The translations under genes and the position numbers were made by a program. From assembly GCA_003838145.1 (NCBI GenBank), contig QYZZ01000089.1, forward strand, positions 1 through 59,840: a DNA stretch of 59,840 nucleotides, in the 5' to 3' direction. Shown piece after piece: positions 17,266 to 20,499 of the stretch. A model generated the notes under the pieces. The model had not been told where the DNA came from. It saw nothing but the letters and a program-made list of their open reading frames with translations, and did not search any database. The number at the start of each line of letters is the position of its first letter. Positions within the stretch are counted from its first letter, which is position 1. Source of the DNA: Tindallia sp. MSAO_Bac2 (GTDB lineage: Bacteria; Bacillota; Clostridia; Peptostreptococcales; Tindalliaceae).

Positions 17266-18498
17266 ATGAAAAAAAGCGAACCAATTATTGTTATTGGAGG
17301 CGGGGCATCCGGTATGATGGCAGCTTTGGAAGCTGCCCGTTGCGGAGCAAAGGTCGCGATTTTGGAAAAAGAAAAAAGAATAGGAAAAAAACTTCTGGCG
17401 ACGGGTAATGGCAGATGTAATTTTAGCAATATCGATCCGGATCTTCGTTATTATCACGGTGAAGACTTAAGGTTAGCTGAATCAGTCCTTAAACAAATAT
17501 CAGCGGAAGAAGTATTAAGGATTTTTCATCAACTGGGTATAACTCACAAAATTGAAGAAGCAGGGAAGGTTTATCCATATTCTGACCAGGGATCAGCCGT
17601 ACTGGATGTGCTCAGGTACGAAATAGAGATGCAGAACATAAATATTCTGACAGAAACCAAAGCTGTATCTATCCATAAAAAGAAGGATTACTTCATGATT
17701 AAAACGAACAAGGATGAGCTAATAGAAGCCAAAAAAGTTATTTTGGCAACGGGAGGAAAGGCCGGAAGTCAATTTGGAGCTGATGGAAGCGGATACCAAC
17801 TGGCTCAGAGTCTTGGGCATCGATTAGTCGATCCTTTTCCGGCTATTGTTCAACTTAAGCTGCATGCACCATGGTTAAAAGCTGTAAATGGAGTTAAGTG
17901 GCAGGGACAAGTTTGCTACAACCGTAATGGTAAATGTCTTCGAACCGAAAAAGGAGAAATACTATTTACTGAATACGGGATATCCGGACCGCCAGTATTG
18001 CAGCTGGGACGTCTGGCGTCAAGACAGCACAAAAATGACACTGTGAAAATAGATCTCTTTCCGACATGGGGGATGGAGCAAATACAAGCTGAAGTTTATA
18101 CGCGCCTACAAAGCAACCCCCAAAAACCAGCAGACTTTTCGCTGGTAGGACTCTTGCATAAAAAAATGATTCCGGTGTTACTTAAAGAAGCTGGTGTTGA
18201 TAAAGTCGGAAAACCATCATCCGAAATAACGGAGAAAGAAATTAAAAATCTGATTTACTTGTTAAAAGAATGGGAGATTGGCGTATCTGGAACGCTTTCC
18301 TGGCAACATGCTCAAGTAACTGCCGGTGGCATTGATACACGGGAAATCCACTCTTCAGGTCTTGAATCTCAGTTAATATCGGGATTATATCTGACTGGTG
18401 AAGTGTTGGATACAGATGGAGATTGCGGCGGTTACAACCTTCACTGGGCATGGTGCACGGGACTCCTTGCCGGAAGACAGGCTGCGTCATTCTTGTAG
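17266..18498 (+). CDS. HI0933/YhiN-type flavoprotein
   Basis: A 410-residue FAD-dependent oxidoreductase of the HI0933-like (BaiN/YhiN) family. The dinucleotide fold IVIGGGASGMMAALEAAR starts near residue 4, followed by LATGNGRCNFSN, ILATGGKAG, TEYGISGPPVLQ and the C-terminal VTAGGIDTREI and GEVLDTDGDCGGYNL typical of the family. Physiological substrates are unclear. It is 20 bp upstream of a second FAD protein and probably co-transcribed with it. Confidence 0.9.
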   Translation: MKKSEPIIVIGGGASGMMAALEAARCGAKVAILEKEKRIGKKLLATGNGRCNFSNIDPDLRYYHGEDLRLAESVLKQISAEEVLRIFHQLGITHKIEEAGKVYPYSDQGSAVLDVLRYEIEMQNINILTETKAVSIHKKKDYFMIKTNKDELIEAKKVILATGGKAGSQFGADGSGYQLAQSLGHRLVDPFPAIVQLKLHAPWLKAVNGVKWQGQVCYNRNGKCLRTEKGEILFTEYGISGPPVLQLGRLASRQHKNDTVKIDLFPTWGMEQIQAEVYTRLQSNPQKPADFSLVGLLHKKMIPVLLKEAGVDKVGKPSSEITEKEIKNLIYLLKEWEIGVSGTLSWQHAQVTAGGIDTREIHSSGLESQLISGLYLTGEVLDTDGDCGGYNLHWAWCTGLLAGRQAASFL

Positions 18499-18517: not shown

Positions 18518-20104
18518 ATGATTCGGATTTATGAGCTGAAAATAGCGGCAAATAAAGAGCAAAATCTTGAGAAGAGCATAGCAGAGTACTTAAAAATTAA
18601 GCCGCAGGAAATAATTGAATACCGTATATACAAGCGATCTGTTGACGCCAGAAAGAAAGACCGAATTATGCTGGTATATATTGTGGATCTGACAGTAAAG
18701 GATGAAAAAAAAGTTCTTCACAACAATAGAAACAAGAAAGTTGAAAAGAAACCTCCGGAAAAAGAATTATCCATTAGTTTTGGGGACAGCAAACTCCCTC
18801 ATCCGCCTGTAATAATTGGTACTGGGCCTGCCGGCTTGTTTTGTGGCCTGCTTTTGGCTGAAAAAGGTTACCGTCCTATTCTGCTTGAAAGAGGGGAACC
18901 GGTAGACAAGCGCATTAAAGATGTACACCAGTTTTGGAAAGATGGAAGCTTAAATACCGAATCAAATGTTCAGTTTGGGGAAGGGGGAGCAGGAACCTTC
19001 TCTGATGGCAAACTGACAACCCGGATTAACGACCCCAGGTGCAGGTATATACTGAAGAAAATGAAAGACCATGGTGCTCCAAATGAAATATTATATGACA
19101 GCAAACCACATATTGGGACAGATAAGCTAAGAAAAGTAGTGGCAGAAATAAGAGAAGCTATTATCCGCTATGGTGGAGAGATTCGCTACAGAAACAGAGT
19201 GGAAAGGCTTCAAATAGAAAACAATCACATCAAGGGAATTGAAATAGAAGGTGAAGAGGCGGTTGAAACTTCGGTGGTTGTAGCATCTATGGGACACAGT
19301 GCCAGAGATCTCTTTGAATCTTTTTATGATAGTGGAGTGCCAATGGAATCCAAAGCCTTTTCAATAGGAGCTCGAATTGAACATCCTCAGGAGTTAATTA
19401 ATGAAATACAATATGGGACAAAATCTGGTATTTCCACGCTTGGTGCTGCAGACTACCGTTTATCGTGGCATCATCCCAATGGTCGTGGTGCTTATACTTT
19501 TTGTATGTGCCCGGGAGGTATGGTAGTAGCATCCGCTTCTGAAAAAGACTCAGTAGTCACCAACGGCATGAGTGCATACGGAAGAAATGGAAAAAATGCA
19601 AACAGTGCTTTACTGGTTTCTGTTACGCCGGAAGACTTTGATTCAGAAAATCCATTGGCGGGTATTGATTTTCAGCGAAAATGGGAACGAAAAGCCTTTG
19701 TGCTGGGCGGCAGAAACTACCGGGCTCCTGCCCAAAGAGTTGAAGACTTTCTCAGTTTAAGAGCATCAAAAGACCTGGGGGAAGTCTATCCAACCTACAG
19801 GCCGGGAGTAAACCCTGCAGATTTATCTGTCTGCCTTCCTTCCTACGTATCTGAAGTGCTAAGAGAAGCACTGATGCAATGGAATCGGAAAATGAAAGGC
19901 TTTGCCTTAAACGACGCTATTTTAACCGGCGTTGAAACCAGAAGTTCTTCACCGGTACGGATAAAACGAAATGAATTGATGGAAAGCGACGTAAAAGGAC
20001 TGTACCCGGCAGGTGAAGGGTGTGGTTATGCGGGAGGAATTATGTCTGCAGCTGTTGATGGCGTTAAAATCGCAGAAGCTATCATGGAAAAATATTATCT
20101 ATAA
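18518..20104 (+). CDS. COG2509-type FAD-dependent dehydrogenase
   Basis: A 528-residue FAD-dependent protein. A small N-terminal domain (about 1-75, MIRIYELKIAANKEQ) precedes the FAD fold (PPVIIGTGPAGLFCGLLLAE), then FGEGGAGTFSDGKL, ARIEHPQELIN, CMCPGGMVVASAS and GEGCGYAGGIMSAAVDG. The family is widespread in anaerobes but of unknown function. The ATG follows GGAAACGGAGG. A small UGA-containing selenoprotein gene starts 55 bp downstream on the same strand. Confidence 0.9.
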   Translation: MIRIYELKIAANKEQNLEKSIAEYLKIKPQEIIEYRIYKRSVDARKKDRIMLVYIVDLTVKDEKKVLHNNRNKKVEKKPPEKELSISFGDSKLPHPPVIIGTGPAGLFCGLLLAEKGYRPILLERGEPVDKRIKDVHQFWKDGSLNTESNVQFGEGGAGTFSDGKLTTRINDPRCRYILKKMKDHGAPNEILYDSKPHIGTDKLRKVVAEIREAIIRYGGEIRYRNRVERLQIENNHIKGIEIEGEEAVETSVVVASMGHSARDLFESFYDSGVPMESKAFSIGARIEHPQELINEIQYGTKSGISTLGAADYRLSWHHPNGRGAYTFCMCPGGMVVASASEKDSVVTNGMSAYGRNGKNANSALLVSVTPEDFDSENPLAGIDFQRKWERKAFVLGGRNYRAPAQRVEDFLSLRASKDLGEVYPTYRPGVNPADLSVCLPSYVSEVLREALMQWNRKMKGFALNDAILTGVETRSSSPVRIKRNELMESDVKGLYPAGEGCGYAGGIMSAAVDGVKIAEAIMEKYYL

Positions 20105-20159
20105 TTTAAAAGTTAACAGGGTAACGATATATTATGCTTTGGATAGGAGAGATGAACGC

Positions 20160-20450
20160 ATGGAAATTATAATGTCAGAAAAGCTAAGGCATTATCTGAC
20201 CAAAAGAAAAATTACAGACCTGACGGTTGAGCAGGTTGAAATTAAACGCTGCTGACTGGGTCCGAATCTTCCTTCGGTGAAGGAAGGGAAACCGGAAAAC
20301 CCCGAAAAGTATCTTCTTGTTGAAGCTGATAATACTAAAGTGTATCTTGACAAAGAGATTGAGTTTAAGCGAAAGGTTGCTAAAATGGATCTTAGAAAGT
20401 TTTTTCTGACTCATGAAATAACAATTGACGGTGTTGATATCACATATTAA
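20160..20450 (+). CDS. Small selenoprotein with in-frame UGA (Cys-Sec motif)
   Basis: Read through the TGA at 20253-20255 as selenocysteine, this frame gives a 96-residue protein. ATG 20160 follows AGGAGA by 9 nt. Codons 1-31 end in EIKRC, the UGA is codon 32 (Cys31-Sec32), and 64 further sense codons in the same frame (LGPNLPSVKEGKP, KYLLVEADNTKVYLD, HEITIDGVDITY) run to TAA 20448-20450, followed directly by a terminator. A SECIS-like hairpin begins 12 nt after the UGA. From memory this resembles the small family called CC/Se motif (seleno)protein, whose other members have Cys-Cys at this place. Function unknown; a redox role is likely. The alternative is a nonsense-mutated gene. Confidence 0.8.
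20256..20296 (+). promoter_or_regulatory. bacterial SECIS-like element
   Basis: A 7-bp stem CTTCCTT (20268-20274) / AAGGAAG (20280-20286) carries the loop CGGTG; the loop starts 20 nt after the UGA. A G early in a short apical loop at this distance is the usual layout of bacterial SECIS elements that recruit SelB. GGT (20259-20261) and ACC (20291-20293) may extend the base. Confidence 0.7.
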
Positions 20451-20453
20451 TTT

Positions 20454-20487
20454 AAAAAGACTTCCCCGAAGAGGAGAAGTCTTTTTA
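20454..20487. terminator. bidirectional intrinsic terminator
   Basis: AAAAAGACTTC (20454-20464) and GAAGTCTTTTT (20476-20486) form an 11-bp stem with T-runs on both strands. It separates the selenoprotein gene from the convergent parvulin gene. Confidence 0.85.
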
Positions 20488-20499
20488 GTGAACTTTAGT

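Follow-up and report, generated by a model that had tools for sequence, protein, structure and literature searches.

How far does a gene extend when its reading frame is interrupted by a single UGA, and what might its product do? The question is raised by a locus on the plus strand of a 59,840-nucleotide stretch of DNA from Tindallia sp. MSAO_Bac2 (the whole of which is called the window here), where a standard call of open reading frames ends the gene at codon 31. The frame begins with an ATG at 20160, with a ribosome-binding site AGGAG read from the sequence at 20145-20149, 10 nt upstream. The single in-frame UGA between 20160 and 20450 is codon 32 (20253-20255) and directly follows the TGC of Cys31 (20250-20252), so that the pair occupies 20250-20255. 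Beyond it the frame stays open for 64 codons to a TAA at 20448-20450, giving a reading of 96 residues in which Cys31 and selenocysteine (Sec, or U) 32 would be the sole cysteine or selenocysteine residues. A terminator-like hairpin lies at 20452-20488 between convergent genes (−17.3 kcal/mol, z = −5.0, a value reached by none of 200 shuffles), a site that a simple scan gives for the minus strand only. Upstream on the plus strand are genes for an HI0933-like FAD-binding enzyme (17266-18498, matching TIGR00275) and an FAD-dependent enzyme with a PF21688 C-terminal domain (18518-20104). The original prediction had described the frame with its ribosome site, the UGA next to Cys31, the further 64 codons, the TAA with a terminator behind it, and two preceding genes for FAD-dependent oxidoreductases, and each element is found where it was placed.

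The openness of the frame is not remarkable in itself, because 16 places in the window, the present gene included, fit a similar rule of an open frame interrupted by TGA (at least 25 codons to the TGA, then at least 50 open codons, with a total of at least 110). What raises this gene above chance is that the frame, the codon and a hairpin are kept in relatives.

The 96-residue reading matches the NCBIfam family NF041239, 'CC/Se motif family (seleno)protein', with 52.2 bits over profile positions 1-91 of 91 (cut-off 40), and a six-frame search gives the window gene 47.2 bits against the same profile. The window protein matched no family in Pfam and did not reach the cut-offs of TIGR01911 or NF038090; at E up to 0.1 and up to 1 the only match was again NF041239. 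A poorly characterised family of the Cys-Cys/Cys-Sec kind had been proposed from the sequence, and this was right, the family being NF041239; the existing name, the IscA/HesB-like fold and the U-C and U-U pairs discussed below had been missed. In Table 1 of a 2026 review the family appears as a 'hypothetical protein predicted in Moorella thermoacetica', a predicted selenoprotein with motif CxxU and one Sec, and the text on the family and this table give no fold or function (PMC13188914). That entry and the window protein have in common a Cys/Sec pair and the status of predicted selenoprotein, and the window protein matches the whole length of the profile. The table gives CxxU and one Sec, whereas in the window protein C and U are adjacent; U-C, CxxU or U-U occurs elsewhere in the family. 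The window gene almost certainly encodes a selenoprotein and adds a member to an already known, uncharacterised family.

Family matches were found in 33 of 60 related genomes. We analysed 58 of the 60 matches, leaving out one short piece (G001:C115) and one that proved on translation to be an unrelated frame (L081). One in-frame UGA is present in 43 of the 58, and all 43 UGAs fall in two adjacent columns of the alignment, the first holding 19 and the second 24; U was written as C when the rows were aligned, which favours column agreement. C31-U32 of the window protein occupies these same two columns. The residue pairs among the 58 rows are CU (22), UC (13), CC (9), UA (5) and others (nine), the CC rows being the Cys-Cys homologues against which an alignment had been suggested. 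Among nine aligned C-U rows, window included, with 32-76% identity to the window protein, Cys is followed by UGA in every case; random frameshifts after the UGA would have spoken against the original prediction, and the eight nearest C-U relatives keep both UGA and frame. Six loci include those of a Tindallia sp., two Clostridiaceae bacteria, Anoxynatronum buryatiense, Alkaliphilus transvaalensis and Candidatus Petromonas tenebris. For the part following the UGA the window and one relative (L043) give pS of 0.73 and pN of 0.17, many other pairs being saturated at silent sites, and on this comparison of sequences the part following the UGA is judged to be under purifying selection.

We note that three family members (L045, L058 and L069) form a Cys-Cys clade lacking the UGA, and that Sec forms occur in their genomes too. 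The gene 3′ of L045, the one of these loci on which Pfam was run, encodes a PF03601 membrane protein.

The genome itself contains matches to SelA (507.1 bits), SelB (392.6), SelD (399.9) and tRNA-Sec (74.1), all above cut-offs. The genes selD, selA, selB and that for tRNA-Sec (selC) lie in a row on the minus strand between 60,107 and 64,685 of contig C34 (within the region L080, C34:56000-68000). The original prediction depended on these four genes, and all are present, on that one contig. The selD gene has one in-frame TGA of its own, and weaker extra matches to SelB, SelD and tRNA-Sec fall below the cut-offs. When the count is limited to genomes of at least 90% completeness, the family has Sec forms in 24 of 43 with SelA versus none of 10 without (Fisher p = 0.001), one genome with a SelA match only below the cut-off (G035) being counted as lacking it. 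Over all 60 genomes the corresponding numbers are 28 of 48 versus two of 12 (p = 0.02); the two genomes with a Sec form and no SelA match are incomplete, at 79% and 63%.

Bacterial SECIS elements are hairpins located just past the UGA with a G opening the loop, and are recognized by this loop G and its distance from the UGA. In the window a 7-bp hairpin with loop CGGTG had been described 12 nt past the UGA; CTTCCTT-CGGTG-AAGGAAG is present there and folds in this way. The loop closes further to GGU (20276-20278), beginning 20 nt past the UGA, on an 8-bp stem of 20268-20275 with 20279-20286, so that the element spans 20268-20286 and has a G at the start of its loop, just past the UGA, as in the bacterial elements. 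Its folding energy stands out only mildly (z = −2.1 over 61 nt and −0.8 over 41 nt). When each member was scanned for hairpins with G as the first or second base of the loop, the best-scoring one had a loop beginning exactly 20 nt past the UGA in 19 of 24 C-U members compared with two of 15 non-Sec members. The stem in the 24 C-U forms beats all of 400 synonymous recodings (z = 7.1) while 11 Cys forms give z = −0.9, the other four of the 15 non-Sec rows, which lack Cys in the second column, having been omitted. The 24 C-U forms also score when the hairpin is set 3 nt earlier (z = 5.2), the Cys forms reach z = 2.9 at an offset of 21, and the 19 first-column Sec forms share no common hairpin offset (best z = 1.8).

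The hairpin also covaries, as would be expected of the SECIS-like element that was proposed. The covariation score for 15 of the 24 C-U rows is 0.423; shuffles give 0.180, with none of 500 reaching the score, and sliding the pairing gives no more than 0.262, though the rows compared are kin and the hairpin statistics consequently overstate the number of independent events. In these 15 rows 82.1% of the stem cells pair and six of the eight pairs vary on both sides; two of the 15 (L046 and L056) begin 3 nt late, which leaves the stem unaffected. A search of 1.5 kb around the gene with Rfam gave six matches at E up to 5, all below their gathering scores. BTnc231, the only one on the plus strand that overlaps the coding sequence, begins well 3′ of the hairpin. 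A tblastn search of a plasmid collection gave one match, in Acetoanaerobium noterae, with 31.6% identity and no annotated feature beneath it.

Genome-wide reassignment of UGA to an ordinary amino acid, for which nothing was found in support, is exceedingly improbable in view of the presence of SelA, SelB and tRNA-Sec and the confinement of the family UGAs to the Cys/Sec pair. If translation simply ended at the UGA and the open frame beyond it were a relic or had arisen by chance, the unremarkable openness and single-sequence folding would be as observed, but the UGA, the downstream frame and the hairpin would not be conserved in relatives; we regard this as very unlikely. The decoding machinery, the conservation of UGA, frame and hairpin, and the family match, all found in silico, support the proposal of a selenoprotein with a Cys-Sec UGA, and we are highly confident that UGA32 is read as Sec. 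In the cell SelB with Sec-tRNA would read the codon as selenocysteine, helped by the hairpin 3′ of the UGA.

What kind of protein would this be? AlphaFold2 with the window protein and six relatives gave a model with a mean pLDDT of 84.0 and pTM of 0.75. The best match in a Foldseek comparison with the PDB is 1x0g_A (E = 2.4e-3, probability 1.00), with none under E = 1e-3, and the ten best rows comprise IscA, SufA, HI1723, AQ_1857, a putative Fe-S biosynthesis protein and chain B of an ODPA-YNER model, the YneR part of which we take to be a HesB-like protein. VIA-align gives Z of 5.2-6.4 for ten entries, including DsrR and a second Fe-S biosynthesis protein, after which Z drops to 2.5; a Z below 8 can alone reflect a common arrangement, and here sequence profiles agree. 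In a profile search at E up to 1, PF01521 was matched by five of 30 family members (best 1.2e-4), the window protein not being among them, and NF038090 by six of 30 (best 9.6e-5). Alignment by hhalign of the family with 18 HesB-like proteins of the same genomes gives a probability of 97.7 (E = 1.5e-12, 97 columns), or 95.5 when the family is represented by only its nine C-U rows. A PDB sequence search with the family profile (A2) returned two irrelevant matches only. The fold of the window protein is predicted to be IscA/HesB-like.

In these alignments Sec32 falls on the Sec of the HesB-like proteins, with U-x-G-P read in both. The HesB-like profile in turn sets its Sec on the cysteine of Gly-Cys-Ser-Gly in Escherichia coli IscA, residue 35 by count. 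By this two-step alignment Sec32 would take the position of IscA Cys35, and the Cys31-Sec32 pair would lie in the loop that carries it. The window protein resembles the HesB-like selenoproteins (TIGR01911 / NF038090 IscA_HesB_Se) in its length, predicted fold, aligned Sec and U-x-G-P. However, it lies on a separate branch in a tree built on few columns whose bootstrap is unsettled, has a Cys before the Sec and scores below the HesB-like model cut-offs, and it lacks the C-terminal Cys that is present in 17 of 18 aligned HesB-like rows. A study on Methanococcus reports that HesB-like selenoproteins came to light through 75Se labelling and that their function is not clear (PMC11097638).

The likeness of the window protein to the A-type Fe-S carriers IscA, SufA and ErpA (PF01521) lies in the predicted fold and the placing of Sec32 at Cys35; unlike them it has no Pfam match and no C-terminal cysteines. 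IscA has three cysteine ligands, Cys35 and two at the C-terminus. We have rejected assignment of the window protein as a classical A-type carrier, because it has only Cys31 and Sec32 and the three-cysteine set is absent. With the other cysteines missing, its role is likely to be that of a small thiol-selenol redox or metal carrier and not that of a classical IscA.

Two further genes of this kind were observed in the genome. One (L022, C34:108097-108360, minus strand) is a second CC/Se selenoprotein gene, with C-U encoded with UGA and a C-terminal Cys-Leu-Cys that recalls IscA. The other (L093, C23:15991-16224, minus strand) is a HesB-like selenoprotein gene with UGA and is the sole PF01521 match of the genome. 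As both have a UGA, the genome has three IscA-like selenoprotein genes when that in the window is included.

In six genomes of two genera the gene immediately preceding that for the selenoprotein, on the same strand, encodes the PF21688 FAD enzyme, and downstream PPIase and HD genes are found in four genomes only, all of the genus of the window. Three of the nine closest C-U rows (L062, L063 and L068) have no such FAD gene next to them, and the pairing is absent in the other branches looked at. Since PF21688 is present in 52 of the 60 genomes, the proximity could have arisen by chance in one lineage. The window gene shares this proximity with HesB-like selenoproteins of other lineages, which lie within 5 kb of a PF21688 FAD gene in five genomes; the two are close in six of 14 chosen regions (L118-L122 and L128), those of the five genomes included. 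A link between the FAD enzyme and the selenoproteins is suggestive and no stronger, because few lineages supply the pairings. Around other branches of the family, 20 chosen neighbour proteins belong to mixed families, including transporters, peptidases, a sigma factor and a multicopper oxidase, and the neighbourhood was accordingly rejected as a guide to function.

Of the 43 Sec forms, 35 have a Cys adjoining the Sec and 41 have one no more than four residues away; the remaining two have none anywhere. This closeness favours a selenol-thiol pair, though a metal chelate would look identical. In a redox role the Cys-Sec pair would cycle between the thiol/selenol and the selenylsulfide, making the protein a small thiol-selenol carrier, and the FAD enzyme of the adjacent upstream gene would perhaps reduce the oxidised pair.

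Alternatively, the selenoprotein might carry a metal or an Fe-S cluster, with two subunits pooling two Cys-Sec pairs to hold the cluster or a soft metal ion in place of a redox relay. The predicted IscA/HesB-like fold and the location of Sec32 where IscA has Cys35 are in keeping with this, as are an added C-terminal Cys-x-Cys in six rows of the sister branch that includes L022, and the UGA in the genome's single PF01521 match. Against this, the C-terminal cysteines of IscA are missing in the window protein and no neighbouring assembly genes were seen in the annotated regions. We regard a metal or Fe-S carrier as possible but rather doubtful. For the redox pair we would put the chances as even. 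Overall the best explanation, held with moderate confidence, is that of a genuine bacterial selenoprotein acting as a small thiol-selenol carrier.

The family extends to members with two UGAs. A survey of 398 genomes of the phylum gave family matches in 91, and in 11 of these matches there are two in-frame UGAs, which are consecutive and located at the position of the pair. A profile of nine of these U-U rows gives 11 matches above 87 bits, spread over 10 genomes from five families; each of the 11 has both UGAs, and the next match has 43.5 bits. These are L162-L172, in genomes G100, G133 (twice), G166, G195, G267, G288, G309, G369, G387 and G404. All 11 proteins are devoid of Cys, and SelA is present in all 10 genomes. 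In nine of the 11 rows (L162 and L164 being left out) a hairpin has its loop 21 nt past the second UGA; all 63 cells pair and two of the seven pairs vary on both sides, with a covariation score that was reached by three of 500 shuffles. The branch is weak against NF041239, one of four tested exceeding the cut-off, and hhalign of the branch with the family gives 98.8. From their sequences these are candidate bacterial Sec-Sec proteins. The window gene, having one Sec, is not among them. In a separate locus (L173, G406:C13) there are two family matches with TAA or TAG inside the matched frame, which are possibly decayed copies.

Consecutive Sec-Sec has been reported for the algal PDI_e, with the motif GUGUU (PMC7539508). 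The likeness to the U-U branch is in the consecutive Sec; PDI_e is eukaryotic and another protein, named as a PDI, and the window gene with its one Sec is unlike it. No bacterial case came up among the papers listed for consecutive Sec or in the table of PMC13188914.

The family may be a selenium-rich branch of the IscA/HesB fold, in which the pair is C-U, U-C or a tandem U-U. UGA-UGA would be decoded with the aid of one SECIS hairpin to give a Sec-Sec site in Cys-less proteins, and together with the HesB-like selenoproteins these small carriers would work with the PF21688 FAD enzyme. We place this joint reading a little short of an even chance rather than at one, because the part concerning the FAD enzyme rests on few lineages.

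The family itself was already known, and what is added is the predicted IscA/HesB-like fold, the link to the HesB-like proteins and the tandem-Sec branch. This provides a fold and a candidate chemistry for a family that is given only as a hypothetical protein in the table of PMC13188914, and connects that family with the HesB-like selenoproteins. With the tandem UGA-UGA relatives it would become possible to test how a single hairpin serves SelB in the decoding of two Sec codons in succession.
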